64,000 bases of DNA from positions 62,001 to 126,000 of the forward strand of contig NZ_FOAF01000001.1 in NCBI RefSeq assembly GCF_900109575.1. The letters run 5' to 3'. A program made the position numbers and the translations under genes. The notes below the pieces were generated by a model. That model saw only the letters and a program-made list of their open reading frames with translations. It made no database searches and was not told where the DNA came from. This DNA is from Olivibacter domesticus (GTDB taxonomy: Bacteria; Bacteroidota; Bacteroidia; Sphingobacteriales; Sphingobacteriaceae). Positions 1,649-35,507 of this stretch are shown here, in pieces (positions within the stretch are counted from its first letter, which is position 1; every line of letters starts with the position of its first letter).

Positions 1649-1718
1649 AATTTTTATTTAGCTTTTAAATAGATTAACATATGCTGGATGTCATCATTTA
1701 AGACAAATTTAACAAAAT

Positions 1719-3203: not shown

Positions 3204-3222
3204 CTTTAAAGGCCGTTTATTG

Positions 3223-6636: not shown

Positions 6637-6708
6637 TACGTTTGTGCGTTTAGATGGGGTTAATTAAAGGTTTTAATTCGCTTTTGGTTATGCTGCTGTC
6701 TGAACGAT

Positions 6709-6733
6709 AGGGAGGTGTTAGTGGCACTTCCCT
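6709..6733. other. hairpin in the fecR-susC gap
   Basis: AGGGAGGTG (6709-6717) and CACTTCCCT (6725-6733) form a 9-bp stem with one G-U pair when read on the + strand (an A-C mismatch on the - strand) and a 7-nt loop. A T-rich run follows on the + side only. It sits between the fecR stop and the susC start, so on the coding strand it is at best a weak attenuator. No function is shown. Confidence 0.3.
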
Positions 6734-6820
6734 TTTTCGTTTTAGATAATCAAATTTTTCGTTCCATATTGATAAGTTTTTAATTGGTTATTGTTTGTTA
6801 TTTATCTCTCAAATTTTTAT

Positions 6821-8038: not shown

Positions 8039-8103
8039 TAAATGCTATTACGATAATGTGCCAGAAATCTTTCCGCTTTTTGATTTATTTTTAATACGAT
8101 TTT

Positions 8104-18074: not shown

Positions 18075-21000
18075 ATGAACTATTTAACTGAATCTTGGAA
18101 AAAGAGCATAACCATAACCGTGCTCTTATTAACAATGACCTATCTGGTCTCGTATGCGCAAGGCACCCTAACAGGAAAGGTAGTAGACGCTACTACGCAA
18201 GAGCCTCTTCCAGGTGTATCTGTCAAAATTAAAGGTACCTCGCGTGGCACCGTTACAGATGCAATGGGGGTCTTTGGTTTAAAGGCAGAACCTGGGGCGG
18301 TACTGCAGATTTCTTACACAGGTTACGTTTCTACGGAGGTGACTGCCAAGGCAGGGGAACCTTTAACGATTAGGCTTCAAGTAGATCAACAGGCTTTAGA
18401 CGAAGTGGTAGTGGTAGGATATGGTACCCAAAAGCGCACCACACTAACAGGAGCGGTAGGAACGGTAAATAAAGAAACCTTTCAAGACCGCGGCCCAATT
18501 GCAAATCCCTTGGCCGCATTGCAGGGGCAGGTTGCAGGGGTAACCGTTACACGCAGTTCTGCACAGCCCGGCCGTGAGAGTTGGAATTTCCAAATGCGTG
18601 GAGCTTCCTCGGTAAACGGTACAGAGGCGCTTGTCATTATTGATGGTGTACCAGTTCCGGGTGTAAGCGCACTAAATTCGCTCAATCCAAATGATATTGA
18701 AAATATTTCCTTTCTGAAAGACGCAGCAGCGGCCTCTATTTATGGTGCGCGGGCAGCAGGTGGCGTCGTATTGATCACTACCAAACGAGCAATCGATGGG
18801 AAACCTACCATCAATTACAATGGATCCTTATCGCTGAAACGTGTTGGTTTATTGCCACACCTAGTAGATGTAAATGGCTGGGGGCCCATGATTGAAGAGG
18901 CACGTTTGTCTGATGGCTTCGGTGCTGAAGATTTGTGGATCAATTTAGCGCGAGCATCAATTTATGCAAAGCAAAATAATTTGAATTATTTAACGAGACA
19001 ACAGTATTTAGATCAAGGATTTACAGGTTTTACGGATGTGCGCGATTTTATGTTTTTTGACGGAACCATGCAGGATATCCTATGGGGTGATGCTACCAGT
19101 CACGAACACCAATTGAGTATAAGCGGTAAAGGAGAGAAGACAGGATACCGCATATCTTTGGGATACTTAAATGATGGAAGTTTACTGCAATATGGAGATA
19201 ATAGTAATAAACGTTATAATCTACGTTTATCACATGATTATCAGATCACAGATAAATTTAAGCTGCAAAGTAACGTATCACTGGAACGAAATGACATTGT
19301 GCAGCCGAGCGGTTTAGGAGGTTTATTGAACAATGGAATCCAGCCGGGTATGCCCACCGCTACCATTAACGGGAAACCATATATTTGGGGCTCTGGCATA
19401 GGTAATGTGGCGGTTAATAATATTGCGCAGTTTGGCGGTGAAAATAAGGAATTTCATACGCGGATCAATACCAATTTCAATCTATCCTATCAATTTAATG
19501 AACACTTCAGTGCAAACGCTGCTGTAGGCTACTATTTGTACAATCGAGATAACCGTGTGCAAGAAAATTTAGTAGGGTACTACGATTACCTGGAAACGGC
19601 ACCCCCCATCTATCTTACCTCTACCGGTGCGAATCAAAACTTTTATCAAAGAGGCGCACGCCGCGAAAATTATTACACAGGAAATGTTTATTTGCAATAC
19701 CAAAGGGTATTCGATGCCCATCATGATTTTAAAGTGATGGCGGGAGCGCAATATGAAAGGAATGATTTCAATCGCTTTTTAGGAAGAACATTGGATCTGC
19801 TCGACGGTGTTCCTCCTTCTTTAAGTAACAGCTTTGGTGATCCTACTACAAAGTCGGTAGGAGAAACACAAGGGCATAATGCATTGGCTGGATATTTCGG
19901 CAGACTGAATTACAGTTATAAAGGACGTTATTTGCTGGAAGTCAATGGCCGATACGATGGTTCTTCCCGTTTTAGGGCACAAGATCGATGGAAATTATTC
20001 GGGGGCATATCGGGCGGATGGCGTTTGAAAGAAGAGGCTTTTTTGAAAGATGTTGGCTTTTTGAGCGATCTGAAACTTCGTGCATCCTGGGGTACAGTAG
20101 GTAACCAAAGTGGTATTGGCTTGTATGATTATTATGAGTATTTGCGATTAGATTATTCCACTGGCCCTGCTTCGGGTGGTTTCCCCATCCTAGGAAACAG
20201 TCCCGTAGTACGCGTATCGCCGCAAAATTTGGTAGCCTTTGACCGAACATGGGAAGAGTTGCAAACAACGAATGTGGGGCTCGACTTTGCTTTTGCCGAT
20301 AATCGATTGGTGGGTAGTGCTGACTATTTTGTAAAGCGGAATAAAAACATGCTCTTGGCACGTACCTTTCCAGCTGTTCTTGGTGCAACAGCCCCACAGG
20401 GGAACAATGGCGAGCTGAAAACGACAGGTTGGGAGCTGAGCCTTAACTGGCGAGACAAAATAGGAGAAGTGAACTATCATATCGGTGGCAATGTTTCCGA
20501 TGCAAAGAATGAGCTTGTCAATTTTGGTGGACAAACACTTATTCAATCAAGCAATCAGGGTTTTAACAGTGCCGTAGAAGGTTACCCGATCAATTCTTAT
20601 TTTGGTTTAGTGTACGATGGCCGTATTCAAACGCAAGAACAACTGGACACTTATATTGCGGCATACAAAAGTGGTTCGAATGTCCTTCCTCAGGGTACGG
20701 GCAGAAATAACGGCTTGCAGCTGGGCGATAATATGTTTAAGGATGTGAATGGTGATGGTAAAATCACCTTTCCCGACGATGCGGTATTCCTAGGTACCGA
20801 TGATCCCCGTTATTCTTTCGCTGTCAACGGTGGGTTCGACTGGAGAGGCTTTGATTTGAGTTTTATTTTTCAGGGGGTGGGTAAAAGAACCATTCTCAGA
20901 ACAGGTAACTGGCGTATTCCAGGAGCTGTGGTGTATCAGGCACAGAATGAGGCTTTTTATAATAAATGGTGGACACCAGAGCGCACAGACGCCGAATATC

Positions 21001-21332
21001 CCCGTATATCGACAACCGGAAATATTAATAACTACAACTATTTTCCGTCCGATTTTGTGCGTGAGAATGGAGCGTATCTTCGATTGAAAAATCTTGTGGT
21101 TGGTTATACGATCCCACAAATGATAACGAGAAAGATAGGTGTTGAACGCCTACGCGTGTATTTTTCAGGAAACGATCTTTGGGAAATCAGCAAAATACGT
21201 GACGGATGGGATCCAGAGGCACCGCGAACGGTTAATACAGAAGGTGATAGCGATAACAACAATGTACATACGGTTAGTCAACGTTTCCCTTTCTACCGTT
21301 TCTATACTTTCGGAGTTAACTTAACGCTTTAA
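18075..21332 (+). CDS. SusC-type TonB-dependent transporter (no STN domain)
   Basis: The 1085-residue receptor has a signal segment (SITITVLLLTMTYLVSYAQ), a carboxypeptidase-like domain (about 30-105, GKVVDATTQEPLPGVSVKIK), the Ton-box-like DEVVVVGYGTQKRTTLTG, a plug with ALVIIDGVPVPG and FLKDAAAASIYGARAAGG, and a barrel ending FYTFGVNLTL. Unlike the first SusC it has no STN domain, so it is not expected to signal through a FecR protein. An out-of-frame ATG at 18067 overlaps the true start region. SusD follows 20 bases later. It should import oligosaccharides released from the target glycan. Confidence 0.95.
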   Translation: MNYLTESWKKSITITVLLLTMTYLVSYAQGTLTGKVVDATTQEPLPGVSVKIKGTSRGTVTDAMGVFGLKAEPGAVLQISYTGYVSTEVTAKAGEPLTIRLQVDQQALDEVVVVGYGTQKRTTLTGAVGTVNKETFQDRGPIANPLAALQGQVAGVTVTRSSAQPGRESWNFQMRGASSVNGTEALVIIDGVPVPGVSALNSLNPNDIENISFLKDAAAASIYGARAAGGVVLITTKRAIDGKPTINYNGSLSLKRVGLLPHLVDVNGWGPMIEEARLSDGFGAEDLWINLARASIYAKQNNLNYLTRQQYLDQGFTGFTDVRDFMFFDGTMQDILWGDATSHEHQLSISGKGEKTGYRISLGYLNDGSLLQYGDNSNKRYNLRLSHDYQITDKFKLQSNVSLERNDIVQPSGLGGLLNNGIQPGMPTATINGKPYIWGSGIGNVAVNNIAQFGGENKEFHTRINTNFNLSYQFNEHFSANAAVGYYLYNRDNRVQENLVGYYDYLETAPPIYLTSTGANQNFYQRGARRENYYTGNVYLQYQRVFDAHHDFKVMAGAQYERNDFNRFLGRTLDLLDGVPPSLSNSFGDPTTKSVGETQGHNALAGYFGRLNYSYKGRYLLEVNGRYDGSSRFRAQDRWKLFGGISGGWRLKEEAFLKDVGFLSDLKLRASWGTVGNQSGIGLYDYYEYLRLDYSTGPASGGFPILGNSPVVRVSPQNLVAFDRTWEELQTTNVGLDFAFADNRLVGSADYFVKRNKNMLLARTFPAVLGATAPQGNNGELKTTGWELSLNWRDKIGEVNYHIGGNVSDAKNELVNFGGQTLIQSSNQGFNSAVEGYPINSYFGLVYDGRIQTQEQLDTYIAAYKSGSNVLPQGTGRNNGLQLGDNMFKDVNGDGKITFPDDAVFLGTDDPRYSFAVNGGFDWRGFDLSFIFQGVGKRTILRTGNWRIPGAVVYQAQNEAFYNKWWTPERTDAEYPRISTTGNINNYNYFPSDFVRENGAYLRLKNLVVGYTIPQMITRKIGVERLRVYFSGNDLWEISKIRDGWDPEAPRTVNTEGDSDNNNVHTVSQRFPFYRFYTFGVNLTL

Positions 21333-21352
21333 TCTATCATAAGAAATCTATT

Positions 21353-23086
21353 ATGAACACGCTATATAAAAATATTATATGCTACTCCTGGCTTCTAGCA
21401 GGACTGGCATTCACAGGATGTAATAAAATGCTCGATCTGAAACCCATCAATGAAATATCAGATGCGGACTATTGGAAGACGGCCGATCAGTTTGAATTGG
21501 CCGCGAACGAATTTTATACGTATTTAAGAACGTTTAACCAGATCGGTGTGGTGGACGCGCCGCATGCAGAAATCAGGGGCGACTTGGTCGCGGCGAATGA
21601 TAGAAACCCTTATAGCAACGGTACAAATACGAACACAAACAGCGATAATAACTATTCGGATGCATTTAAACGTATCCGGGCGATCAATTATTTTTTGGAT
21701 AAAGCAACTAATTATATAACGCCGGATGAAATTGCTGTGTATGTTGCAGAGGCTAAGTTTTTTAGGGCCTACGTGTATTTCGATCTGTTACAAATGTATG
21801 GCGAAGTACAATTGTTTGATAAGCCGCTAACGATTGATTCGCCCGAACTTCAGGGAGCGCAGAATAGCCGGGCTGAGGTAGTTGATTTCATTATCCGCGA
21901 TCTCGAGGAAGCTATTCCAGCGCTTCCTTTTGAAAACGCAATAAGTACCAGCAGTAAAGGTCGTGTAAGTAAAGCTGCCGCGCAGGCTTTCTTAGGTAGA
22001 GTGGCGTTATATGAGGGCTCCTGGCAGAAATTCAGGAACGGTGATGCTACTCGATATTATAGCCTGTTTGATAAGGCTATTGAAAACAGTAATGCCGTGA
22101 TCGAATCAGGGCATTATCAATTATTTGCACCAGCAGCACTGGGTGATTCTGCGCAAAAATATTTATTTATATTAGAAAACGAACAGTCGAATCCAGCTAG
22201 CCTCGGCAAGTCGGCTAATCAGGAGTATATTTTAGCTAACCGGTACGATTCGGAGCTTCGGCAAATTCGATACAATGTGACACATACCTACCTAGGATTA
22301 CAGGTTACCAAGAAATTTGCCGACATGTTTTTAACGGCAGGTGGATTACCAATAGATCAACCTGGATCTAATTTTGGCGGCTACAATACCACCCGATCTG
22401 AATATGCAAATCGCGACACACGTATGCGTTATATGATGATGATTGATGGGAATTATTATTGGGACAATGAGGCTCCATCAAGCAGGGCTAACTGGTTAAG
22501 TGACGCGGTTGACTTAGCTAATTCCAGAGGCCGGCATAACGGAGCAATGGGGACGGGTTATGCCAGTCAGAAATGGGCAACGGAACGAAGAGTGGATGAC
22601 AATGCGGAAGGTTACGATTATCCGGTAATCCGCTACGCCGAAGTCTTGTTGAATTATGCCGAGGCAGTTTATGAAAGAAACGAAGCCATCTCCGATGCTG
22701 ATCTAGACAAAAGTTTGAATTTAGTAAGACAAAGAGTAAATATGGGTATGCCCAAATTAAGCAATGCTTTCGTTTCCGCTAATGGCTTGGATTTACGTAG
22801 CGAACTTAGGAGAGAGCGTACGATCGAATTGTTTATGGAAGGCTTTCGAGTAGACGACCTAAAGCGTTGGAAAACAGCGGAAGTGGAGTTGCCGAAACCA
22901 TTGCAGGGAATTACATGGACGGGAACGGAATGGGAAACAAAATATCCTGCCATTTCTGATAGAATCCAAAATGGTGTGTTTATGCTGGAAACGGCAAGGC
23001 AATGGAATGAAAAGAACTACCTGCTTCCCATTCCGAACCAGGAGATTCAGTTGAACCCCAACTTGAAACAGAATCCGGGATGGTAA
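21353..23086 (+). CDS. SusD/RagB-family glycan-binding lipoprotein
   Basis: The 577-residue lipoprotein has the lipobox AFTGC (Cys near 23) followed by NKMLDLKPINEISDADYWK. The SusD framework is seen in AEAKFFRAYVYFDLLQMYGE, and the C-terminal part carries VIRYAEVLLNYAEAVYE, LRRERTIELFMEGFRVDDLK and NYLLPIPNQEIQLNPNLKQN. It forms the lid on the SusC channel. No separate surface glycan-binding protein (SusE/F type) is coded next to it, so SusD may be the only dedicated surface binder of this locus. Confidence 0.95.
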   Translation: MNTLYKNIICYSWLLAGLAFTGCNKMLDLKPINEISDADYWKTADQFELAANEFYTYLRTFNQIGVVDAPHAEIRGDLVAANDRNPYSNGTNTNTNSDNNYSDAFKRIRAINYFLDKATNYITPDEIAVYVAEAKFFRAYVYFDLLQMYGEVQLFDKPLTIDSPELQGAQNSRAEVVDFIIRDLEEAIPALPFENAISTSSKGRVSKAAAQAFLGRVALYEGSWQKFRNGDATRYYSLFDKAIENSNAVIESGHYQLFAPAALGDSAQKYLFILENEQSNPASLGKSANQEYILANRYDSELRQIRYNVTHTYLGLQVTKKFADMFLTAGGLPIDQPGSNFGGYNTTRSEYANRDTRMRYMMMIDGNYYWDNEAPSSRANWLSDAVDLANSRGRHNGAMGTGYASQKWATERRVDDNAEGYDYPVIRYAEVLLNYAEAVYERNEAISDADLDKSLNLVRQRVNMGMPKLSNAFVSANGLDLRSELRRERTIELFMEGFRVDDLKRWKTAEVELPKPLQGITWTGTEWETKYPAISDRIQNGVFMLETARQWNEKNYLLPIPNQEIQLNPNLKQNPGW

Positions 23087-23202
23087 GAATCTATAAGACG
23101 ACGTTTTGGATAAAAAGTCGATAAAAATTTGATTAATAATTGGTTTTAATTTTAGTGATATTGTACCCCTCCTGCGCAGGAAGGGGCAATGTTTTAAATT
23201 TT

Positions 23203-24399
23203 ATGGAAATGCGAATTTTATGCTGTTACTTAGTTTTTTTTAGTCTGAACCTTATGGCCTGCCATCAAAAGGAAGCAGTTTATGATCCGCAGAAAGATAT
23301 TGAATATTGTATCGCGCAGGCGAAAAAGACACTGATGAGTCTACCGATCGATACGCCTAATATTCCTCGAAATATTACGGATGCAAGTGGTAAATGGAAA
23401 CTGGTAAATTATAAAGACTGGACAAGCGGTTTTTGGCCCGGTATCCTTTGGTATGCCTATCAGGCAAGTGGAGATGACTCTCTTAAGTATGCAGCAGATC
23501 GCTGTTCACGTGAGCTGATCCCTTTGTCGCAAGAGCCCGCTATCGATCATGACCTGGGGTTCCAGGTATTTAGTAGCTTTGGTAATGGTTATCGTTTAAC
23601 AAAGGATACCAGTTATAAACAGATTATATTGGCTAGCGCAGATACTTTGGCGACTTTATTTAACCCACATGTAGGTACCATCTTATCTTGGCCGCGAGCG
23701 GTACCGAACATGGAATGGCCGCAGCATAATACCATTATCGATAATATGATCAATTTGGAGCTCTTATTTTGGGCGTCCAAGAACGGAGGAGACAGCAGGT
23801 TATATGATATAGCGGTAAGCCATGCTGAGAAAACGATGAAAAATCATTTTCGTCCAGATTATACAGCTTATCATGCAGTGGTTTACGACCGGGAAACGGG
23901 CGAAAAGATAAAGGGTATCACCCATCAGGGCTATTCGGATGGTTCGATGTGGGCGCGTGGGCAAGCTTGGGCGATATATGGTTATACCATGTGTTACCGG
24001 GAAACAGGCAAGCAGGAGTTTCTAGATTTCGCCGAAAAGGTTGCGAAGGTCTATCTGGACCGCCTGCCGGATGATTTAGTTCCCTATTGGGATTTTGATG
24101 ACCCGGCTGTGCCAAATGCGCCACGAGATGCTTCGGCTGCTGCAGTTACAGCATCGGCATTGTTGGAGCTTTCCGGTTTGGTAAATAATCAGGGAAAAGC
24201 AGCTTTTTATTACAGAAAAGCTGCCGACATGCTGGCCTCTCTGTCGACGAGCTATCAAAGTGGTGAAGCAAATACAGCATTTCTCAAGCATGTAACAGGG
24301 CATAAGCCGAATAATAGCGAAGTAGATGCCTCGATTAATTATGCGGATTATTATTATTTAGAAGCCTTATTGCGATTGAAAAACAGTACGGTAGAATAG
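23203..24399 (+). CDS. GH88 unsaturated glucuronyl hydrolase
   Basis: The frame is open from 23140, but ATG at 23203 (or 23209) gives a proper lipoprotein signal (RILCCYLVFFSLNLMAC). The rest is an (alpha/alpha)6 barrel. WTSGFWPGILWYAY, DHDLGFQVFSSFGNGY (near 115) and IIDNMINLELLFW (near 180) contain the two Asp residues used in GH88 hydration catalysis; HQGYSDGSMWARGQAWAIYG is a further signature. GH88 removes the 4,5-unsaturated uronic acid that polysaccharide lyases leave at non-reducing ends. Its place in the same operon as a heparinase-like lyase fits such a two-step pathway. GH105 is a related alternative, but the motifs fit GH88 better. Confidence 0.9.
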   Translation: MEMRILCCYLVFFSLNLMACHQKEAVYDPQKDIEYCIAQAKKTLMSLPIDTPNIPRNITDASGKWKLVNYKDWTSGFWPGILWYAYQASGDDSLKYAADRCSRELIPLSQEPAIDHDLGFQVFSSFGNGYRLTKDTSYKQIILASADTLATLFNPHVGTILSWPRAVPNMEWPQHNTIIDNMINLELLFWASKNGGDSRLYDIAVSHAEKTMKNHFRPDYTAYHAVVYDRETGEKIKGITHQGYSDGSMWARGQAWAIYGYTMCYRETGKQEFLDFAEKVAKVYLDRLPDDLVPYWDFDDPAVPNAPRDASAAAVTASALLELSGLVNNQGKAAFYYRKAADMLASLSTSYQSGEANTAFLKHVTGHKPNNSEVDASINYADYYYLEALLRLKNSTVE

Positions 24400-24471
24400 C
24401 CTTAATCGCAGTGATTTTGAAATGGATAAAAGAATCATTTAGAAAATAACATATTAAATATCGGATTATAT

Positions 24472-26475
24472 ATGTCAAGTAAAGGGCAAATTTTTCTCTT
24501 TTTAGCGATTTGGCTCCATACCGTATGTGCTTTTGCCGGTCAAAATACGATTATCAAAGAATGGACAGTGCAATCGCCCGACCAGCGTTATGAGATGAAG
24601 ATCTATCAAAAACAACTAACGAATGGTAAAAAACAGTTGTACTATTCACTTAACTATCGGAATAAGCCCGTAGTGGAAGAGTCTGAATTAGGGATCTTGA
24701 TAGAAAACCAACTGTTTGAGTCGGCCTTAGGTATTGAAAATGACACGAGCACCTTATGGTGTGAAAATCTCGATTTCAAAGAGGAACAAGTTAATCAGAT
24801 ACAGGCAGAATGGAAACCGCTTTATGGTGAACGTAGCAATATTAGAGATCACTATAATGAACTGATCTTGCGTTTTGTCAAATTTGGTGCCGGGGAGGAG
24901 CATACAGAAGGACAGCATGGTACCGCTTACGATAAACGTAGGAGTTATGAGATGGATTTGGTTGTTAGGGCATACGATGAAGGGGTAGCGTTCAAGTATT
25001 TCTTTCCTGAAAGCGCGAACGGACTGTTTTTGCATATTACGGGAGAACAGACTTCTTTTTCTTTTGCAGAAGGTACGAAGGCCTACTATGAACGCTGGGC
25101 ACAGGGGCCATATGCCCTGAAACCATTGGCAGCATGGGAAGATGAAAGTGAACGACCGCTGACGCTGGAATTGAAGAATGGTCTTTATGTCGCGCTGCTG
25201 GAAGCTCAAATGGTAGACTATGCCCGCACGAGATTTAAGTTGACTAATGTAAATACATTGCGTGCGTCTTTATATGGCAATGTAGACGCCGTCAGTCCTT
25301 TTTCAAGTTCTTGGCGGGTCATTATGGCGGCGGAAGAACCAGGTGAATTGATTGAGAATAATGATATAGTATTGAATTTAAACAACCCAAATGCGATTAA
25401 GAATACAGCTTGGATCAAGCCTGGTAAAGTCATTCGTTCAGGCTTGTCGACAGCAGAAGCAAAGGCCTGCATTGACTTTGCAGCTACCCACCATCTACAA
25501 TATGTACACCTGGATGCGGGCTGGTACGGACCGGAGATGAAGGTGTCTTCCAAAGCCAATCGAGTGGCAGAAAATAGGGATATCGATATGCAGCAATTGA
25601 TCAGCTACGCAGCACAGAACAGTATTGGCATTTTTGTATATGTCAACCAACGGGCATTGCTTGAAAACCTGGATGAACTGTTTGGATTGTACCAGAAATG
25701 GGGAATAAAGGGAGTCAAATTTGGCTTTGTGCAAATTGGGTCCAATCGTTGGTCAGATTGGTTACATAAAGCAGTGAAGAAGGCCGCAGAGTATCAATTG
25801 CTCGTGGATATTCACGATGAATACCGGCCTACAGGATTTAGTCGGACTTACCCCAACCTACTAACACAGGAAGGTATTCGGGGCAACGAGGAAATGCCAG
25901 ATGCGACACACAATACCATCCTGCCCTATACGCGTTTCTTGGCAGGAGCAGGAGATTATACGATCTGTTATTACAATAACCGTATCAAAACCACCCATGC
26001 ACATCAACTGGCTTTATCGGTGGTGTATTACAGTCCGCTTCAATTCTTGTATTGGTATGATAATCCGTCGCATTATAATGGGGAACCAGAGATTGAATTT
26101 TTTGATAAAGTGAAGACAGTATGGGATGATACGCGGGTGTTACAAGGCCAGATCGGGCAGTATATAGTGACGGCCCGTCGTAGTGGGGAGGAATGGTTTG
26201 TTGGCGCTATTACTAATAATGATAGTCGCAAAATAGATTTGGGTTTGAACTTTTTGGAAAAAGACAAGCAATATGTCTTGAGCAGTTATACAGACGATGA
26301 TGAGGTGAATACGAAAACCAAGGTAGCGGTGAATCGCTTTTTGGTAGACTCCACTACACCTGTACAGCTCTTGTTGAAAGCCAGTGGTGGTGCCGCATTT
26401 CATATCAGGCTTGCTCAAAATGCCGATAAGAAAAATTATAAATCGTTAATAAAAAAGGCAATTAAATTAAGATGA
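24472..26475 (+). CDS. GH97 alpha-glycosidase (alpha-glucosidase/alpha-galactosidase family)
   Basis: The 667-residue protein has a signal peptide (LFLAIWLHTVCAFAG), a GH97 N-terminal beta-sandwich (about 30-300), a TIM barrel (about 310-560; VHLDAGWYGPEM, VKFGFVQIGSNRWSDW, DIHDEYRPTGFSRTYPN, GIRGNEEM) and a C-terminal domain with WFVGAITNNDSRKIDLGL. Known retaining members have an Asp nucleophile where this protein has Gly in KFGFV, so it belongs with the group lacking that nucleophile; the mechanism and sugar are therefore open. It most likely removes alpha-linked side sugars in the periplasm. The TGA overlaps the next ATG by four bases. Confidence 0.9.
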   Translation: MSSKGQIFLFLAIWLHTVCAFAGQNTIIKEWTVQSPDQRYEMKIYQKQLTNGKKQLYYSLNYRNKPVVEESELGILIENQLFESALGIENDTSTLWCENLDFKEEQVNQIQAEWKPLYGERSNIRDHYNELILRFVKFGAGEEHTEGQHGTAYDKRRSYEMDLVVRAYDEGVAFKYFFPESANGLFLHITGEQTSFSFAEGTKAYYERWAQGPYALKPLAAWEDESERPLTLELKNGLYVALLEAQMVDYARTRFKLTNVNTLRASLYGNVDAVSPFSSSWRVIMAAEEPGELIENNDIVLNLNNPNAIKNTAWIKPGKVIRSGLSTAEAKACIDFAATHHLQYVHLDAGWYGPEMKVSSKANRVAENRDIDMQQLISYAAQNSIGIFVYVNQRALLENLDELFGLYQKWGIKGVKFGFVQIGSNRWSDWLHKAVKKAAEYQLLVDIHDEYRPTGFSRTYPNLLTQEGIRGNEEMPDATHNTILPYTRFLAGAGDYTICYYNNRIKTTHAHQLALSVVYYSPLQFLYWYDNPSHYNGEPEIEFFDKVKTVWDDTRVLQGQIGQYIVTARRSGEEWFVGAITNNDSRKIDLGLNFLEKDKQYVLSSYTDDDEVNTKTKVAVNRFLVDSTTPVQLLLKASGGAAFHIRLAQNADKKNYKSLIKKAIKLR

Positions 26476-27920
26476 AATTTAAATATAGGGTTCGGCAATT
26501 ATTCTTTGCACTGTTTTGCTTGCTAACAACTATTGCAGTAGAAGCAAGTGATCATGCAAAGAAACTAGTTGTATATAAAGCTCCATCAGGCGCATTGCTG
26601 AACAACGATTATACCGTCTCCGTTCGTCAGGTGAACGATAAAAAATGGAAAGCAGTGCCTACGCATTTGATCAAAGTAGATGAAGTACGTGAAGCCGAGC
26701 ATAAGGTCGAAAATTCTTCCATGGCTTATTTTGATTTCGCTGGGGAAGTAGAAGTATCGGTTACCTTTAACAAAGAATCAATTGATAAAGCACGGGTAAG
26801 ACCTTTGTCGTATGGAATTGAATCAACTGTAGAGGGTAACACCTTGACTTTTCGACTGGATAGACCACGGAATCTCTCGATTGAAGTGAATGGTGATATT
26901 TTCCACAACCTCTTGCTGTTTGCGAATCCACTTGTGGAAAACATACCCGATCGAAAGGATCCTAATGTTATTTTCTTTGATGCGGGCATCCATGAATTTC
27001 CTGGTAAAGTATTTAAAGTACCCAGCAATAAAACGGTATACATTGCTGGCGACGCGATTCTGAGAGGGCAACTACTGATCGATAATGTGGAGAATGTAAG
27101 CGTCATCGGGCGCGGAATGGTGGAACACACGGTGAAGATGGGCGTCCATATTTCGAATGCAAAGAATATTCTAGTGGAAGGAATATTTACAACGCAATGT
27201 GCCACAGGAGGATCTGATAACGTGATCATTCGCAATGTGAAAAGCGTGAGCTATTATGGCTGGGGAGATGGTATGAATGTCTTTGCTAGCAGCAATGTGC
27301 TGTTTGATGGAGTGTTTTGCCGAAATTCTGACGATTGTACAACAGTATACGCAACACGGAAGGGATTTGAAGGAGGATGCAAAAATATTCGTATGGAAAA
27401 TTCCACGCTCTGGGCCGATGTGGCGCATCCTATCTTTATCGGGATACACGGAAATGCGGAAAAGCCAGATATTATTGAAGATGTTTTTTATAAAAATATC
27501 GATATTCTCGATCATAAGGAAGCTCAATTGGACTACCAAGGTTGCTTGGCTATTAATGCGGGCGACAATAACCTGATCCGTAACGTGCACTTCGAGAATA
27601 TCCGTATAGAAGATTTTAGGCAGGGTCAATTGGTGAATTTACGCATATTTTTTAATGAAAAATATTGCAAAGCGCCGGGCATGGGTATTGAAAATATTAT
27701 CTTTAAAGATGTCAGCTATAATGGAAGCGGTGAGGAGCTTTCCATGATCTCAGGTTATGATAGTGAGCGGAAAATAAAGAATGTGGTTTTCCAAAACCTA
27801 CGTATAAATGGTGAGCTAATAAGCGATGATATGCCTGATAAACCGAAATGGTATAAAACGGGCGATATGGCGCGAATCTTTGTCGGTGAACATGTAGAAG
27901 GTGTAACCTTCATCCGCTGA
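26472..27920 (+). CDS. GH28-like right-handed beta-helix glycosidase
   Basis: The 482-residue secreted protein (signal LFFALFCLLTTIAVEA) has an N-terminal beta-sandwich (about 25-145) followed by a parallel beta-helix (about 160-470). NSDDCTTVYATRKG and GWGDGMNVFASSN recall the Asp-rich active site of GH28 and GH49 enzymes. VIGRGMVEHT is the coil region often seen before it. GH28 members cleave alpha-linked galacturonic acid or rhamnogalacturonan; GH49 cleaves alpha-glucan. The subfamily cannot be settled by eye, but the context of GH88 and lyases favours a uronate-containing glycan. ATGA overlap with GH97 suggests translational coupling. Confidence 0.75.
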   Translation: MKFKYRVRQLFFALFCLLTTIAVEASDHAKKLVVYKAPSGALLNNDYTVSVRQVNDKKWKAVPTHLIKVDEVREAEHKVENSSMAYFDFAGEVEVSVTFNKESIDKARVRPLSYGIESTVEGNTLTFRLDRPRNLSIEVNGDIFHNLLLFANPLVENIPDRKDPNVIFFDAGIHEFPGKVFKVPSNKTVYIAGDAILRGQLLIDNVENVSVIGRGMVEHTVKMGVHISNAKNILVEGIFTTQCATGGSDNVIIRNVKSVSYYGWGDGMNVFASSNVLFDGVFCRNSDDCTTVYATRKGFEGGCKNIRMENSTLWADVAHPIFIGIHGNAEKPDIIEDVFYKNIDILDHKEAQLDYQGCLAINAGDNNLIRNVHFENIRIEDFRQGQLVNLRIFFNEKYCKAPGMGIENIIFKDVSYNGSGEELSMISGYDSERKIKNVVFQNLRINGELISDDMPDKPKWYKTGDMARIFVGEHVEGVTFIR

Positions 27921-27959
27921 TATAAATAAGAAGAATGACAGCATGATGGAATATAACGG

Positions 27960-29894
27960 ATGAAAAAAAGAATTTTAATAGGATGTTCCTTGTTTTGGAG
28001 CATAGGTCTCTGGGCGCAGTCGCTCTATCCCGGCCAACATCAAGGGAAAACGATTTTGCCTATCCAAGCGGATATAAAAGCCTATAGTTTCGACGTCAAA
28101 GATGTACGATTGAAAAAATCGGTATTCCGGGATAATATGGAAAGATCATCACAATGGATATTGAACCTAGAGGCGGCACGGCTATTACAGAGTTTCCGTA
28201 ATACAGCAGGCGTTTTTTCCAGTAGAGAAGGCGGTTATATGACGGTGATGAAACTCGGTGGATGGGAGTCGTTGGATTGTGATTTACGTGGGCACACAAC
28301 AGGACACATATTATCGGCACTCTCATATTTGTATGCAGCGACGGGCGACCAACGCTATAAGCTGAAAGGTGATAGTTTGGTTGCCGGATTGGCCGAGGTA
28401 CAGCAAGGGCTTGCGGAGATCGGACAAAAAGGATATATCAGTGCGTTTTCGGAAAATTTGATTAATAGAAACATCGCGGGACAACCTGTTTGGGCACCCT
28501 GGTACACCCTGCATAAGATTTATGCTGGTTTGATCGATCAATACCTCTATGCGGGAAATGAACAGGCTTTGGGGGTAATGAAATATGCCGCGTCATGGGC
28601 TTACCAAAAAATCATGCCTTTAAGCGAAGAGCAACGTACGTTGATGCTGCGAAATGAGTTTGGCGGAGTGAACGAAGCTTTCTATAATTTGTACGCCATT
28701 ACCGGAAATGAAGAACATAAGAAACTGGCAACATTCTTTTACCATAACGATGTGATCGATCCGCTGGTCGATCAAAAAGCCGACTTATATGCGAAGCATG
28801 CAAATACGTTTATTCCCAAAGTAATCGGGGAAGCGCGTAACTATGAGCTTAATAATATCCCGCGGGCGCGAAATATCGCGCAGTTCTTCTGGCAAACGGT
28901 AATAGATCATCAAAGCTATTGCACCGGCGGAAATAGCCATAAGGAAAAATTTATCCATGATGATAAATTATCGGAAAACTTAACGGGTTATACACAGGAA
29001 ACCTGTAATACCAACAACATGCTGAAATTAACGCGGCACTTGTTTACCTGGGATGCGGATCCGAAATACGCGGATTTTTATGAACGCGCCTTATATAATC
29101 ATATTTTAGGACAACAAGATCCAGCATCAGGTATGGTGGCTTATTTCTTGCCTTTGTTGCCTGGCGCACATAAAGTCTATAGCACGCCAGAGCACTCTTT
29201 TTGGTGTTGTGTAGGAACGGGCTTTGAGAACCATGCGAAATATGGTGAAGGAATTTACTACCATAAAGATGCAAATCTATTTGTGAATCTATTTATTCCC
29301 TCAACACTGAACTGGCAAGAAAAAGGGGTTACACTGAGCCAAGAAACCGCTTTTCCAGAAGAAGATAAAGTTCGTTTTGTGATTGATCACAGTAACGGTG
29401 AGCGTTGGGCTTTGCAGTTACGCTATCCGGCATGGTCGTCTAACGTGAAGGTCAGGGTCAATGGCAGGGCCGTTAAAGTAAAACAGGTTCCATCTTCCTA
29501 TATCATGATTGATCGCATTTGGAAGACAGGTGATAAAATAGAAGTGGAATACCCGATGTCATTGCATCTCGCGGCGACAAATGATAATCCCGATCTAGCC
29601 GCTGTTATGTACGGACCGCTTGTATTAGCGGGAGCGATGGGAACGGAAGGTATGAAAGCTCCGGCTCCCTTTTCTGATCCGACGCAATACAATGATTACT
29701 ATACCTATGATTACCATGTACCCCAAGGTCTGAAGACTTCTCTGCAAGTCGATCGCAAAAATCTAGCCGCCTCATTAAAGCAAGTGGAAGGAAAGTCGTT
29801 GACATTTAAGACTATAAAAGAACAAAATATAATACTGAAACCTATTCACCAAATTCATCATGAACGCTATGTGGTGTATTGGAATTTGAAATAA
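27960..29894 (+). CDS. GH127 beta-L-arabinofuranosidase-type enzyme
   Basis: The 644-residue protein has a signal peptide (ILIGCSLFWSIGLWAQ) and the (alpha/alpha)6 barrel of the former DUF1680 family. The zinc-thiolate site typical of GH127 is complete: E347 and C349 in QETCNTNNM, and C416-C417 in FWCCVGTGFENHAKYG. In characterised members a Cys is the nucleophile that releases beta-L-arabinofuranose. LGGWESLDCDLRGHTTGHIL is a second signature. It lies 39 bases after the GH28-like gene in the same unit. Other GH127-related families act on different sugars, so the substrate is inferred from family only. Confidence 0.9.
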   Translation: MKKRILIGCSLFWSIGLWAQSLYPGQHQGKTILPIQADIKAYSFDVKDVRLKKSVFRDNMERSSQWILNLEAARLLQSFRNTAGVFSSREGGYMTVMKLGGWESLDCDLRGHTTGHILSALSYLYAATGDQRYKLKGDSLVAGLAEVQQGLAEIGQKGYISAFSENLINRNIAGQPVWAPWYTLHKIYAGLIDQYLYAGNEQALGVMKYAASWAYQKIMPLSEEQRTLMLRNEFGGVNEAFYNLYAITGNEEHKKLATFFYHNDVIDPLVDQKADLYAKHANTFIPKVIGEARNYELNNIPRARNIAQFFWQTVIDHQSYCTGGNSHKEKFIHDDKLSENLTGYTQETCNTNNMLKLTRHLFTWDADPKYADFYERALYNHILGQQDPASGMVAYFLPLLPGAHKVYSTPEHSFWCCVGTGFENHAKYGEGIYYHKDANLFVNLFIPSTLNWQEKGVTLSQETAFPEEDKVRFVIDHSNGERWALQLRYPAWSSNVKVRVNGRAVKVKQVPSSYIMIDRIWKTGDKIEVEYPMSLHLAATNDNPDLAAVMYGPLVLAGAMGTEGMKAPAPFSDPTQYNDYYTYDYHVPQGLKTSLQVDRKNLAASLKQVEGKSLTFKTIKEQNIILKPIHQIHHERYVVYWNLK

Positions 29895-29942
29895 GCAGGA
29901 TAGAAATGAGTTCAATAATTCGAGTGACTGATTAAATAGAAG

Positions 29943-32684
29943 ATGAAGATAAAATTATTTATAAGCCTTTTGACGTTAATCATTAGTAATTCGCTGTACG
30001 GTCAGCAAATACCACTTCCTGCGAACCTGTCAAAGGAGCATCCGCGTTTGCTCACGACGTCGAAAGAGAAAGCTACATTGCAGCAGAAAATTGAGAACGA
30101 AAATTGGGCGAAAGAGGTGAAGGAAGGTCTGATCTTGCGAGTCGAACCTTACCTGAAAAAAGTAAAAGAGCAACCTGATTGGTTGCTTTCTCGATTGATG
30201 ATGTACTGGAAAAGCCACGCAGATCAGGTCTATATTAATGGGGGTTTATATGCGCGTGCCACAGGAGAAGCACCTGTACCAACGATTCGGTTTGGCAGTA
30301 CGCGCGGTATCAGTTCGCCGATTAAGCGACCTAAATTAGAAAATATCATTCCTTATATGGACGATACGAAAGGGGTGTTTTTTCTCAATACAGCAAAACC
30401 GGATTCCCCTTTGGAATGGGTAGATCAGGTAGCGGTTTCGGGCTCGAGCATTGAAAGTGTGAATAATGAGATTATCGGACTGGGAAGAGATGCAGCCTTT
30501 CTTTTTTGGTTGACCGGAGAAGAAAAATATGCCAAATTGGCCTTTGGGGTTTTTGATACCTATATGACCGGTATGTATTATATGAAGGAGCCTATTGACC
30601 AAGGTAATGGTCATGCCCAGACCTTGGTTGGGATGAGTACCTTTGAGGTGATCCAAGAGAAAATACTTCCCGAATTGGCCATCTATTATGATTTTTTATA
30701 TGCATACATTAAATCAACGCATGAAGATAAGCTAGCAATTTATGAACAGGCCTTTAAAAAATGGATTGATGTCACGATTAAACATGGTGTTCCACATAAT
30801 AACTGGAATTTACACCAAGCAAGCTTAATGCTTCCCGCCATTATGGTACTGGCAGATGATAACGAGTATACCGATGGGAGGGGACGTAGCTATTACCTCA
30901 ATTGTATTTTGAACAAGACATCAGCAAGACAATGGGCGTTGACAAAGTTAATGAATTACGGCTATGACAAGGAAACAGGCGTTTGGAACGAAAGTCCGGG
31001 TTATGCGCAAAGCGTGACCAGCCTGTTTATGGAATTTATCCACCGTTACGATAATACCTTTAATCAGAACTTGTTGCCCTACGCACCGGTAATGAAAAAG
31101 GCAGTTGCGGTCCTTCCACAGTACTTGTTTCCCAACCAATTAACAACAGCCTTTGGCGACTCTTATTACGGTGACATCGCTTCTTCTCCCATTGCCGACA
31201 TGATTAAACTGAGTCAGAAGTATGCCGACGCCAAGAATGAGGAGCTTTTTACAGGATTGTATAAGAAATTTGTGGGAGCGGAGCCGATAGGAGATGGAAA
31301 GGGAAATTTGCCCATAGCTATCCAATCTTTTTTTACAAATAAACCATTAGTACTCAAGAAAGATATTGTGCCGGCCAATTTGAAAGACTTTGTGACCCCC
31401 ACATTCTACGCACCCAATGTTAGCTGGTTCGTACAACGATCCAAGTATGATAGTAAAGAAAATGGTTTAATGATTTCGCAGTATGCATCGTATGGCAATC
31501 ACGCGCATTCGAATGGTGTAGCCATGGAGTTGTATGGAAAAGGCTATGTGCTGGGTGCTGAATCAGGGATCGGGTCTAGCTATTTCGAGAAACCTTATTT
31601 GGAATACTATTCACAATTTCCCGCCCATAATACGGTGATGGTGGATGGGATTTCAACCTATCCTGAGATGTTGAGTAATCATCCGTTCGACTTATTGGCA
31701 AACTATCCGGCATCCGGAAAAAAAGAAGGATATTTTCCAGGAGTTACTTATTCCGATGTGTATTTCTTAGAGCCGGAGAGCCGAAGTGATCAAAACCGCT
31801 TGCTTAGTATTGTGAATACAGGCGATTCTACTGGATATTATGTAGATATTTTCCGATCCAAGAAGCAAGGTACCGGTGATAAATTTCATGATTATTTCTA
31901 TCATAATCTCGGTCAAGATCTATTTATAAAGGATGCGTCCGATCGTGATTTACGGTTAGAACCGAGCGAAGAGATGGCCTTTGCAGGTGGACATCTTTTT
32001 GCGTTAGATTACATGTGGGACAAGCGTTCGGCCAAAACGAACAAAGATTATCAGGCGGTGTGGAAAATGACACAACCTAATGGAAATCATGTATACATGA
32101 ACCTTTGGATGAAAGGATACGAAGGACGCGAAGTATTCGCGATCAAAGCCCCACAAGTGAAATCCTTCCGCTCTAACGATGGATTTCCTTATGATTTAAA
32201 AAGCTCTCCATTTCTAACAATAGCAGCGAGACAGCATGGTGAAGCTTGGAATCATCCTTTCGTTTCGATATTTGAACCATCAACCGAAAAAAATGGGAAG
32301 TCCATAGTTTCTATCACCTCATTCGAAGTGAATAACGCTTCTCCTGACTTTGTTGGACTGATTGTGAAAAGTAAATCAGGAAGGAACGACTATATTTTCT
32401 CCTCGGTAAAAGAGGAGGATGTAGTTTATCGAGATATGCGGGCGAATGGAACTTATGTGGTGCTTAGTGAAGAAGGAAATGATTTCACCCTGTTTTTAGG
32501 GCATGGAAAACTATTGGCGGCTAAAGGATTTACAATTTCTGCAGATCAGCCTAGCAATGCTACCTTGCGCTATGAGCATGGTATGTACTATTTCACTTGC
32601 GATCGGCCAGTCGTACTCACCATGCCAAATGGGAAGAGGATAAAAATCGAAGCGCAGGATTATGATACTTTATCTCTAAAATAA
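29943..32684 (+). CDS. heparinase II/III-like polysaccharide lyase
   Basis: The 913-residue protein has a signal peptide (LFISLLTLIISNSLYGQ), an alpha/alpha toroid (about 30-440; NNWNLHQASLMLPAIMVLAD and VWNESPGYAQSVTSLFMEF carry likely catalytic Asn, His and Tyr) and a heparinase II/III beta-sheet domain (about 480-800; YASYGNHAHSNGVAMELYG, GIGSSYFEKPYLEYYSQFPA, HNTVMVDGIS). This architecture occurs in PL12, PL15, PL17, PL21 and newer families, all acting on uronate glycans by beta-elimination. The family number cannot be set by eye. It probably makes the unsaturated ends that GH88 clears. Its TAA shares one base with the next ATG. Confidence 0.85.
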   Translation: MKIKLFISLLTLIISNSLYGQQIPLPANLSKEHPRLLTTSKEKATLQQKIENENWAKEVKEGLILRVEPYLKKVKEQPDWLLSRLMMYWKSHADQVYINGGLYARATGEAPVPTIRFGSTRGISSPIKRPKLENIIPYMDDTKGVFFLNTAKPDSPLEWVDQVAVSGSSIESVNNEIIGLGRDAAFLFWLTGEEKYAKLAFGVFDTYMTGMYYMKEPIDQGNGHAQTLVGMSTFEVIQEKILPELAIYYDFLYAYIKSTHEDKLAIYEQAFKKWIDVTIKHGVPHNNWNLHQASLMLPAIMVLADDNEYTDGRGRSYYLNCILNKTSARQWALTKLMNYGYDKETGVWNESPGYAQSVTSLFMEFIHRYDNTFNQNLLPYAPVMKKAVAVLPQYLFPNQLTTAFGDSYYGDIASSPIADMIKLSQKYADAKNEELFTGLYKKFVGAEPIGDGKGNLPIAIQSFFTNKPLVLKKDIVPANLKDFVTPTFYAPNVSWFVQRSKYDSKENGLMISQYASYGNHAHSNGVAMELYGKGYVLGAESGIGSSYFEKPYLEYYSQFPAHNTVMVDGISTYPEMLSNHPFDLLANYPASGKKEGYFPGVTYSDVYFLEPESRSDQNRLLSIVNTGDSTGYYVDIFRSKKQGTGDKFHDYFYHNLGQDLFIKDASDRDLRLEPSEEMAFAGGHLFALDYMWDKRSAKTNKDYQAVWKMTQPNGNHVYMNLWMKGYEGREVFAIKAPQVKSFRSNDGFPYDLKSSPFLTIAARQHGEAWNHPFVSIFEPSTEKNGKSIVSITSFEVNNASPDFVGLIVKSKSGRNDYIFSSVKEEDVVYRDMRANGTYVVLSEEGNDFTLFLGHGKLLAAKGFTISADQPSNATLRYEHGMYYFTCDRPVVLTMPNGKRIKIEAQDYDTLSLK

Positions 32685-34273
32685 TGCAAAGCTATTTAAA
32701 GAAGGTATTAGCGCTATTTGTCGTGCTACAAATGCTATTTAGTGGGTATATTACGGCTGCGCAATCCGTTTGGCAGTGGTCTGTACCCGTCAAAAATGTC
32801 GATGGCAGCTCCATACCCCATACCGAAGCCTTTTTATGGATTCCAGAAAACTGTAAAAAGGTAAATGCATTTATATTGGTGCAGCATAACATGACGGAGG
32901 AAGGTATATTGGAAAATAGAACTTTCCGTGAGAAGCTCAGTAAGTTGGGTATTGCCGAAATCTGGCTAACAAATCAGATATCTATTAATTACGAAGACCC
33001 GATACTTGCCAATAAGATCTTGCAGCAGATACTGTTAGATTTAGGCAACAAATCGGGATATAACGAGTTAGCAACGGTACCCATTATTCCAATGGGACAT
33101 TCTGCGATGGCCACTTTTCCCTGGAATTTTGCGCTGGCAAATCCAGAAAGAACCTTCGCTATTATCTCGTTGAAAGGTGACGCACCCACCACTAATTTAA
33201 CAGGTTCCGGTCGGCCAAATATCGATTGGGGCGATCGCAATATAGCAGGGATTCCGGGTGTCATGATCATGGGTGAATATGAGTTTTGGGAAGATAGAAG
33301 GACACCAGGGTTTAACTATTTGAAGAAAAACCCGAATACAACACCCTTAACCTTCTACGCTGACGCTGGAAGAGGGCATTTTGATGCAACAGCATCGTTG
33401 ATCACATTTTTGGGTGATTATATCGAACAGGCTTACAAACAAAGGGTAGGTCGATCGTCGCTTATTTTGAAGCCCATCATCTTAGAAAGCGGTGTACTGA
33501 TGGATGTATGGCGAAAAGATTCCTTGCCACAATACCCTGCTACCGCGTATGAGCTGTATAAAGGTGATCGCTTTAAAGCTTCGTGGGTATTCAACAAACA
33601 AATGGCCGGGAAAATCGAAAATAACTACCAGCGCTCTAGATTTAAAAAAGTGAGGGAGCTGGGATTTCAGTTGCAAGGTAAGCCGGTAGAAAAACAACAA
33701 ACGCATGCCAATTATCATTTGGATTTTATACCCGAATCGGATGGTCTAACCTTCCATGTAAAGGCGATTGATGTAAGTGGCGACCGTGAAGAGGTCACCT
33801 TGGATAGGATATGTGGACCTTTTATGAAACTGAATGATACAACCTTTCGCATTCAATTTGATAAAATAGGCATGAATAATCCTAAACGTTCTAACGATCT
33901 GTGGTTTTTGGCGCATGTGGATACCGATAATATTTATAAATACGCTGTCCAACAGGCCAATATGCGTATTCCAATGAAAAATGAAGAAGGGAATGTTCAA
34001 GAGATAGATTTTACAACGATAACGGATGTAACGCTCGGAGCAAAAACTGTCTCATTGCATGCTACCAGTAGCCAGCAGTTGCCAGTCTCCTTTTATGTGA
34101 AAAGTGGGCCTGCCTATATCGAGAATGGTAAATTGCATTTCACAAAAGTTCCACCGAGAACGAAATTTCCAATAGCAGTAGAGGTCGTAGCCTGGCAATA
34201 TGGGATAGCTACCGAAAGCCTGAAAGTTAAAACCGCCGAACCTGTTTTCCAAACTTTTTACATACAACGCTAG
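32684..34273 (+). CDS. secreted alpha/beta-hydrolase, probable carbohydrate esterase
   Basis: The 529-residue protein has a signal peptide (KVLALFVVLQMLFSGYITAA). Its first half (about 30-250) is an alpha/beta-hydrolase: GHSAMATFPWNFA holds the nucleophile elbow Ser, MIMGEYEFWEDRR the probable acid region and GRGHFDAT the His. The second half (about 260-529) is beta-rich, with SVWQW and WQYGIATESLKV-like Ig features, and is not recognised. It starts inside the stop of the lyase gene, so it is tightly coupled to it. A role in removing acyl groups from the glycan before or after lyase action is inference; no characterised family was recognised. Confidence 0.7.
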   Translation: MQSYLKKVLALFVVLQMLFSGYITAAQSVWQWSVPVKNVDGSSIPHTEAFLWIPENCKKVNAFILVQHNMTEEGILENRTFREKLSKLGIAEIWLTNQISINYEDPILANKILQQILLDLGNKSGYNELATVPIIPMGHSAMATFPWNFALANPERTFAIISLKGDAPTTNLTGSGRPNIDWGDRNIAGIPGVMIMGEYEFWEDRRTPGFNYLKKNPNTTPLTFYADAGRGHFDATASLITFLGDYIEQAYKQRVGRSSLILKPIILESGVLMDVWRKDSLPQYPATAYELYKGDRFKASWVFNKQMAGKIENNYQRSRFKKVRELGFQLQGKPVEKQQTHANYHLDFIPESDGLTFHVKAIDVSGDREEVTLDRICGPFMKLNDTTFRIQFDKIGMNNPKRSNDLWFLAHVDTDNIYKYAVQQANMRIPMKNEEGNVQEIDFTTITDVTLGAKTVSLHATSSQQLPVSFYVKSGPAYIENGKLHFTKVPPRTKFPIAVEVVAWQYGIATESLKVKTAEPVFQTFYIQR

Positions 34274-34373
34274 CTCCCCAACCTCCTGTTACCATGGGAA
34301 ATATTTAACATTGATGATCCGAAATGATGAAAAAAATATACTCATCGGCGATATAGCAAAGACCGTAGCTCCT

Positions 34374-35507
34374 CTATTTTGTAGGAGCCGCCTGCGATGT
34401 AGTGGTAGGTCCTTCTACCACGAGCTTTCCGTCTTTTAATATCCTCATCCTGTCTATAAAAACAACCCGTTCTTCACCTGTCGACAAGGTCCGCGCGTGA
34501 TATACACAGAACATCTCCTGCCCGTCTGGAGAGTAAGTAACGCTATTATGCCCTGTTCCGGTCACCACGCCACCACGCTCACTATTTTTTTGCAATACAG
34601 GATTATTAGCTGCTTTGGTAAACGGGCCGAGCGGGCTTTTTGAAGTGGCATATCCCACGGCGTAATTCTTACCACCGAAATAATTGGCAGAATACATCAT
34701 ATAGTAGGTGTTTCCTTTCTTAAAAATGGCAGAGCCTTCCGTCCATCGGCGGTTAACCTCCTTTGAGGTAACGGAGCGGCTTTCCCATTCAGCCTGCTTA
34801 TCATCCATTTTTACAGGAGGTCTTAACAGCAGTACCGGTTCGCCTATTACCCCACTGAAATCAGGCTTTAGCTCAACACCATACACCCAGCTCTCTTCTA
34901 TACTTTCAAACCATCCCTTTTGCTTAGCCCAGGTAGCCACTTCGCTCTCCACCGGATGCTTATAGCAACACCGAGAATAATAAAGGTAAATTTTTCCGCT
35001 TTTATCAAAAAGTACATTCGCATCGATGATAGGATAACCGGGATCAAAAATCGGCTTATTGCTTAGGTCAATAAATGGGCCTGTAGGCTTGTTAGCCACC
35101 GCTACACCGATGCGGAAATTCTCAAGTTCCTTACCGGGATTCTCTTTCCATTGGGCACAGTAGAACATATAAAATTTGCCATTATGTGCATATACTTCAG
35201 GTGCCCAGTAGGCGCCATCCCAGGCGGCAGTAGAATCACTCCAGCCGTTCTGATTACTTGCATAAAATACTTGACCCTCATCTTTCCAGTTAACGAGGTC
35301 TAATGAAGAATAAGCGGCAAACCCATTTTTCGCACCACCGCCAGTTCCGTACATGTAATATTTGTCGCCCTTTACATGCAGTACGTAGGGGTCGCCAAAT
35401 TTAACAGGCAACGGATTCTGATAAGTGTTTGCAGATTGAGCAAACGATCCATTATTGAAGGATAATATAAGCAGGAAGGACCCAAAAAACTTTATTATTT
35501 GTTTCAT
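34374..35507 (-). CDS. GH43-family glycosidase (arabinofuranosidase/xylosidase type)
   Basis: The 377-residue secreted protein (signal FFGSFLLILSFNNGSFAQ) is a single five-bladed propeller. The three acidic residues of GH43 are visible: D39 in KFGDPYV (base), D162 in IIDANVLFD (pKa modulator) and E257 in RWTEGSAIF (acid). No extra beta-sandwich is present. Family members remove alpha-L-arabinofuranose, beta-xylose or galactose. It converges on the esterase gene from the other strand and ends 100 bases from it, so it is a separate transcript that serves the same locus. WAPEVYAHNGKFYMFYCA is the usual second-blade motif. Confidence 0.9.
   Translation of the reverse strand: MKQIIKFFGSFLLILSFNNGSFAQSANTYQNPLPVKFGDPYVLHVKGDKYYMYGTGGGAKNGFAAYSSLDLVNWKDEGQVFYASNQNGWSDSTAAWDGAYWAPEVYAHNGKFYMFYCAQWKENPGKELENFRIGVAVANKPTGPFIDLSNKPIFDPGYPIIDANVLFDKSGKIYLYYSRCCYKHPVESEVATWAKQKGWFESIEESWVYGVELKPDFSGVIGEPVLLLRPPVKMDDKQAEWESRSVTSKEVNRRWTEGSAIFKKGNTYYMMYSANYFGGKNYAVGYATSKSPLGPFTKAANNPVLQKNSERGGVVTGTGHNSVTYSPDGQEMFCVYHARTLSTGEERVVFIDRMRILKDGKLVVEGPTTTSQAAPTK

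Follow-up and report, generated by a model that had tools for sequence, protein, structure and literature searches.

A polysaccharide utilization locus of Olivibacter domesticus probably directed at an unsulfated, hexuronate-containing heteroglycan

We analysed a 64,000-nt stretch of Olivibacter domesticus (contig NZ_FOAF01000001.1; host genome 6.78 Mb), referred to here as the window, which carries a polysaccharide utilization locus (PUL) built around a polysaccharide lyase (PL). A single plus-strand operon (18075-34273) encodes, in this order, a SusC-type transporter, a SusD-type lipoprotein, five carbohydrate-active enzymes, namely a GH88, a GH97, a GH49-like and a GH146-type glycoside hydrolase (GH) and the lyase, and a putative esterase; intergenic distances between SusC and the esterase range from -4 to 72 bp. 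SusC and SusD stand side by side with carbohydrate-active enzymes in the same cluster, as expected of a PUL. We consider it probable, at roughly 0.6, that this system degrades, lyase first, an unsulfated, probably acylated, hexuronate-containing heteroglycan; the glycan would bear arabinofuranose and alpha-linked side sugars, and the best-fitting candidate is a gum of plant or microbial origin. The genes and coordinates given in an earlier note on this DNA are right. Pfam and TIGR matches confirmed SusC, SusD, GH88, GH97, a GH127-type domain and GH43, and the assignments to GH88 and GH97 hold; three other enzymes of the operon had to be reassigned, as described below.

The set recurs around the lyase in members of Sphingobacteriales and of Bacteroidales, much more often than expected by chance. 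A scan of genome contigs with the lyase alone yielded ten loci, with about 10 kb on each side (two were shorter), from Dysgonomonas, Tannerella (two), Parabacteroides, Paludibacter, an unclassified Bacteroidetes metagenome-assembled genome, Sphingobacterium (two) and Pedobacter (two). These contained GH97 in eight cases, GH88, the GH146-type enzyme and the esterase in six each, the GH49-like protein in four, and a GH43 of the window's type in one. Of 301 genomes of the family, Sphingobacteriaceae, 17 gave a lyase match (20 match rows, four of them below 33 bits). The lyase was also detected in 11 of 395 genomes of the phylum, the esterase in 22 of the 301 (two below 20 bits), and the GH49-like protein in 60 of the 301, many of these matches being distant. 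Within the family genomes, 22 of 27 esterase places had a GH97 of the same type at most 30 kb away (0.34 expected), and the lyase lay equally close to the esterase in 7 of 16 places (0.10 expected) and to GH97 in 9 of 16 (0.16 expected), counts that are not independent because the genomes are related. Of 38 such GH97 genes, 24 had at least one of the lyase, esterase and GH49-like genes nearby. Relatives carried additional genes for ROK kinases, sugar porters, LacI regulators, other GH43 enzymes, GH39, GH95, and DUF4979 proteins with Big_2 or TIG domains.

The lyase matched no Pfam family at E 0.001, and a PDB search gave one convincing match, the PL40 ulvan lyase Uly1040 (9vtk, E 1.2e-33). In a 38-row alignment (37 distinct rows), the window lyase retains N287, W288, E350, Y354, D406, H520, H522 and Y547, each present in 37 or 38 of the 38 rows; these are identical counterparts of all eight residues described for catalysis, neutralisation or recognition in Uly1040 (N245, W246, E301, Y305, D358, H485, H487 and Y511) in the accessible text of PMC12915356. 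A further Uly1040 residue, H308, rated non-essential there, is replaced by serine. The two proteins also share a matching stretch of (alpha/alpha) toroid and beta-sheet. They differ in that overall identity is 21.5%, where the Uly1040 work applied a threshold above 30%, and in that the window lyase falls in a clade of 30 rows, split at 100/99 support from the eight rows of Uly1040 and its closest relatives, in a midpoint-rooted tree with a long-branch warning whose deep order is uncertain. By identity and clade it falls outside PL40, and we take it to be a candidate sister group of PL40 at the family level. This corrects the earlier description of a heparinase-like lyase. Dysgonomonas macrotermitis carries a further, strongly diverged member of this lyase superfamily (L009:1118-3784), which is 27% identical to the window lyase, sits on a long branch and has GH39 and GH95 adjoining.

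The structural match raises the question of whether this is an ulvan-type PUL, with a PL40 ulvan lyase acting on sulfated rhamnose-uronate polymers. Beyond the shared residues, GH88 and GH43 are also found beside PL40-type enzymes, and the window contains a sulfatase (263-1648). The tree and the low identity speak against such a reading, however, and none of the 18 proteins scanned in the interval 12391-47031 gave a GH78 or GH106 match. Sulfatases, called by a motif whose pattern we take to be that of the family or by similarity to the window sulfatase, occurred in none of the 15 close lyase loci versus 6 of 19 more distant ones, and that of the window belongs to another, minus-strand cluster with its own SusC and SusD. 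Ulvan loci, in contrast, hold multiple sulfatases together with ulvan lyases (PMC12915356, accessible text). The lyase tree and the missing sulfatases weaken an ulvan target, which we regard as very unlikely. Two of the six sulfatase-holding distant loci (L052 and L116) lie in the Uly1040 clade, which suggests that sister lineages handle sulfated glycans. The genome G453 carries two lyases (L108:8154-10901 and L109:6912-9797; 53% and 34% identical to the window lyase) that are separated by about 17 kb and surrounded by sulfatases, possibly a version of the system for a sulfated glycan. The window's own sulfatase cluster (263-8691) also comprises SusD, SusC with an STN domain, a FecR anti-sigma factor and an extracytoplasmic function sigma factor, and probably forms a PUL directed at a sulfated glycan.

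The GH97 protein possesses the N-terminal, catalytic and C-terminal domains of its family by Pfam. Published residue numbers were transferred by hand to an alignment with solved GH97 structures, and on this alignment Gly418 occupies the site of the retaining nucleophile of 3a24, Asp449 that of SusB Glu508, and Gln393 approximately that of Glu439; the acid, Glu473, is retained. The HHET and HE motifs of SusB-type inverting enzymes are thus replaced by Gln393 and Asp449, and the retaining Asp in the (K/M)(I/V)DF motif of the BT1871 type by Gly418 in KFGF. A similar arrangement was noted by Gloster et al. in 2008 in six outliers with KxG(Y/F), five with HD and most without HHET, which seem to lack both base and nucleophile and were considered either inactive or equipped with another apparatus (PMC2670981, accessible text); Naumoff in 2005 assigned Gly and Asp at these sites to subfamily 97e (PMC1249566, accessible text). 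The window protein shares with this type KxGF with Gly, an HD with Asp on strand 5, and the lack of HHET, a placement in 97e that rests on motif and not on a tree with 97e sequences. What those papers offer, in their accessible text, is sequences alone, whereas the present locus places the type within a conserved set of genes. In the accessible text of one newer GH97 paper that a search for 97e returned, the enzymes described are inverting or retaining, and no active 97e enzyme was found there.

Among 27 GH97 rows from the collected loci, 21 have the Gly/Asp pair and six the Asp/Gly pair of retaining enzymes; after removal of duplicates, 20 of 26 carry Gly/Asp, and 76 of 667 residues are invariant among those 20. 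The invariant positions, which hold down to about 35% identity, include Y390, N392, K416, G418, H448, D449, E467 and E473, and Gln393 is retained in 15 of the 20. Gln211, near the Glu194 site, is Gln in 15 rows and Glu in five, on a stretch where the alignment is uncertain; for this type, Gln is described as replacing Glu194. It could be proposed that this GH97 is a dead carbohydrate-binding protein in a system that needs no alpha-exo-glycosidase of its type, given that both the retaining Asp and the inverting HHET Glu are missing from it and that Gloster et al. themselves raised inactivity. We find this rather unlikely, because active-site residues would hardly be kept invariant under decay; the invariant shell argues for an active enzyme.

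The protein described earlier as GH28-like is GH49-like in its predicted architecture. Its GH28 match covers only residues 224-447, and it gave neither a PDB sequence match at E 0.01 nor a Pfam match to GH49 at E 0.001. A structure model derived from five sequences (predicted local distance difference test score, pLDDT, 81.4) was compared by Foldseek, and ranks 1-7 were isopullulanase and dextranase chains, which we take to be GH49. In VIA-align, the model matched 1wmr with Z 31.5 over 415 residues, N-terminal sandwich included, 6nzs with Z 29.7 over 420 and 1ogm with Z 28.8 over 416; overall, the GH49 chains 1wmr, 3wwg, 6nzs and 1ogm aligned to 414-420 of 482 residues, spanning both the N-terminal beta-sandwich and the beta-helix. 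The GH28 chains 3jur (Z 29.7) and 1bhe (Z 28.9) aligned over a shorter part, some 270-295 residues that lie almost entirely in the helix, and thus not over the full length. The protein thus shares with GH49 isopullulanase and dextranase the two-domain fold and three Asp in the beta-helix (Asp266, Asp287 and Asp288, present in 18 of 18 rows), and differs from them in that no sequence match was obtained at the thresholds given above.

Of the GH127 assignment, the superfamily catalytic domain was confirmed (Table 1), whereas the nearest structure is 5opj (397 bits), which we take to be GH146, and not 4qjy, named as GH127 (91.7 bits). GH146 enzymes have a Glu/Cys/Cys/Cys zinc site with a Cys nucleophile, and the corresponding E347, C349, C416 and C417 are present in 12 of 12 rows. 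The GH88 protein combines its Pfam match with closeness to a structure of the unsaturated uronyl hydrolase type, 3wiw; by eye, its real start is probably an internal ATG near 23203-23209, which would yield a lipoprotein. The 529-aa protein at the end of the operon matched no Pfam family at E 0.001. Its model (pLDDT 79.6) contains an alpha/beta-hydrolase domain, to which the fold matches are confined (residues about 21-280) while the C-terminal part is barely covered, and S140, E200 and H232 are present in 23 of 23 rows; the earlier esterase-like description agrees with the model, and a carbohydrate esterase is the probable function. The GH43 gene, in contrast to its proposed membership of the PUL, lies on the opposite strand as a convergent neighbour, and its best match in the ten lyase loci occurs once, at 31% identity. 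It stands outside the conserved set, and its membership is doubtful; relatives carry GH43 enzymes of other types.

These reassignments bear on the proposal that the target is pectin, arabinogalactan or a plant gum, with a GH28 acting on galacturonate. In its favour are the beta-L-arabinofuranosidase-type enzyme, the GH43 enzymes nearby and in relatives, and a GH2 (37719-40514) that scores 1014 bits on the model of the exo-beta-1,4-galactosidase BT4156, short of the cut-off of 1700. Against this, the supposed GH28 is GH49-like along its full length, and pectate-lyase and rhamnogalacturonan-lyase families, like GH78 and GH106, had no match in the 18 proteins. The pectin and arabinogalactan targets of the earlier note are weakened on both counts, and we consider this alternative unlikely; a plant gum as such is still among the better-fitting targets. 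A glucuronomannan of the gum ghatti type was also considered; the literature search gave it no support, returning marine or algal work by title, and it is a guess only. The GH2 gene is divergent from genes for a DUF6597/AraC regulator and a flavin adenine dinucleotide monooxygenase-like protein. The dextran locus FjDexUL of Flavobacterium johnsoniae has in common with the present PUL SusC/SusD with GH97; it differs in having GH66, GH31 and GH65, no lyase or GH88 among its listed genes, and a GH97 close to SusB (PMC10316084, accessible text).

For the heteroglycan favoured here, we infer the following order of events, in activity as in cell location. Surface lipoproteins of the PF05426 type would cut the polymer, and SusC and SusD, recognised as families, would import the pieces. 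In the periplasm, the PL40-sister lyase would cut at uronate by beta-elimination, as Uly1040 does; by the same analogy, the base would be His520, assisted by a metal together with Asp406 and His522, and the acid would be Tyr354. The esterase, judging from its fold and its Ser/Glu/His residues, may strip acyl groups, GH88 would take off the 4,5-unsaturated uronate, and the GH146-type enzyme, whose zinc-site residues are in place, would take off beta-L-arabinofuranose. The GH49-like and GH97 proteins would cut alpha-linked sugars, GH97 probably with inversion and with Asp449 as base. Finally, the hybrid two-component sensor/regulator (HTCS) would sense a released oligosaccharide. The earlier scheme of lyase cleavage, unsaturated-uronate removal, side-chain trimming and deacylation finds support in the conserved gene set and in the retained residues of the lyase, GH146-type, GH49-like and esterase proteins.

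Several observations weigh against our interpretation. Fourteen of the 38 outlier-type GH97 genes have no lyase, esterase or GH49-like gene within 30 kb. Two Pedobacter loci, L014 and L018, hold the lyase, SusC/SusD (SusD at 52-53% identity) and a PF05426 protein, but GH88, GH97, the GH49-like and GH146-type enzymes and the esterase are all missing within 10 kb. Six loci, L083-L088, keep the esterase, a GH97 and PF05426 proteins without the lyase, in genomes without any lyase match, and the lyase is therefore not a required member of the set. The HTCS is close to the lyase in just one of the ten lyase loci. The GH28 chains trail GH49 closely in Z, and with nearly equal values the preference for GH49 therefore rests on aligned length, not Z. 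The substrate itself is guessed from enzyme families. Several of L083-L088 carry a beta-helix protein of about 590 aa with a weak Chondroitinase_B match, which might take the lyase's place.

Upstream of the operon, the unit probably extends leftward to a start at 9126 (Table 1), because relatives of the two PF05426 lipoproteins and of the HTCS are found together with the lyase or the esterase elsewhere. The HTCS is 47% identical over its full length to one adjoining the lyase in L018 and 42-47% identical to those adjoining the esterase in L085, L086, L087 and L091, and is the probable regulator of the system. The first lipoprotein is 62% identical over 541 aa to an esterase-adjoining protein in L111 and 46% to one in L040; it is a probable surface endo-lyase. 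The second, with no PDB match, is a probable surface lyase; six of the 15 close lyase loci contain a best match to it, at 44-47% identity. The L111 protein (L111:12481-16785; 1434 aa), which adjoins the lyase and the esterase, resembles the first lipoprotein in its first part and bears two more copies of the DUF4979-like part. An AraC-type regulator lies directly before SusC and was absent as a shared family from the relatives' stretches. A search for Bacteroidetes -33/-7 promoters gave two matches in the window against a shuffle mean of 3.66, with none at the operon. Scans for sigma-70 promoters (54 matches, 46.6 in shuffles) and terminators (22 and 15.8) were not used as evidence.

Table 1. 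Features of the locus and its neighbours in the window
Feature	Coordinates	Strand	Basis
DUF4979 + PF05426 (alginate-lyase superfamily) lipoprotein	9126..10844	+	DUF4979 160.9 bits; Alginate_lyase 44.5 bits; lipobox by eye
PF05426 (alginate-lyase superfamily) lipoprotein	11002..12240	+	Pfam 57 bits; lipobox by eye
HTCS	12391..16530	-	Reg_prop, Y_Y_Y, HisKA, HATPase, Response_reg, HTH_18
AraC-type regulator with cupin domain	16968..17840	+	Pfam; 234 bp upstream of SusC
SusC-type TonB-dependent transporter	18075..21332	+	TIGR04056 845 bits
SusD-type glycan-binding lipoprotein	21353..23086	+	PF07980 152.3 bits
GH88 unsaturated uronyl hydrolase	23140..24399	+	PF07470 45.9 bits; nearest PDB chain 3wiw, 281 bits
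GH97, outlier type (Gly418/Asp449/Gln393/Glu473)	24472..26475	+	Pfam; alignment to structures
Beta-helix hydrolase, GH49-like two-domain architecture (predicted)	26472..27920	+	PF00295 (GH28) 30.5 bits; model and fold matches
GH146-type beta-L-arabinofuranosidase-like enzyme (GH127 superfamily)	27960..29894	+	PF07944 404.6 bits; 5opj 397 bits
Polysaccharide lyase, 913 aa	29943..32684	+	9vtk match; catalytic residues; tree
Alpha/beta-hydrolase (predicted) with C-terminal beta-rich part, 529 aa	32684..34273	+	Model; fold matches at about 21-280
GH43	34374..35507	-	PF04616 192 bits

In agreement with the earlier note, searches of open-access literature found no described PUL with the identical set. 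We also entertain, tentatively and with the odds somewhat against it, a further-reaching proposal: that this is an undescribed glycan-degrading system in which the lyase founds a new PL family beside PL40, the beta-helix protein a new GH49-like family, and GH97 is active as a third mechanistic type, with the strand-5 Asp replacing both known catalytic arrangements.

That two bacterial orders share the set suggests that its target is a common natural glycan. We did not find the breakdown of such a glycan described, and several enzymes of the cluster belong to groups for which the same holds of their activity. The two corrected family calls, GH28 and GH127, matter since they would, if left uncorrected, mislead substrate prediction. 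GH97 is the most interesting part, its invariant Gly/Asp active site inside a conserved cluster making its activity testable. The question posed in 2008 by enzymes lacking both base and nucleophile thereby gains a genetic setting, in which it may be put to a single protein and the products of its own operon.

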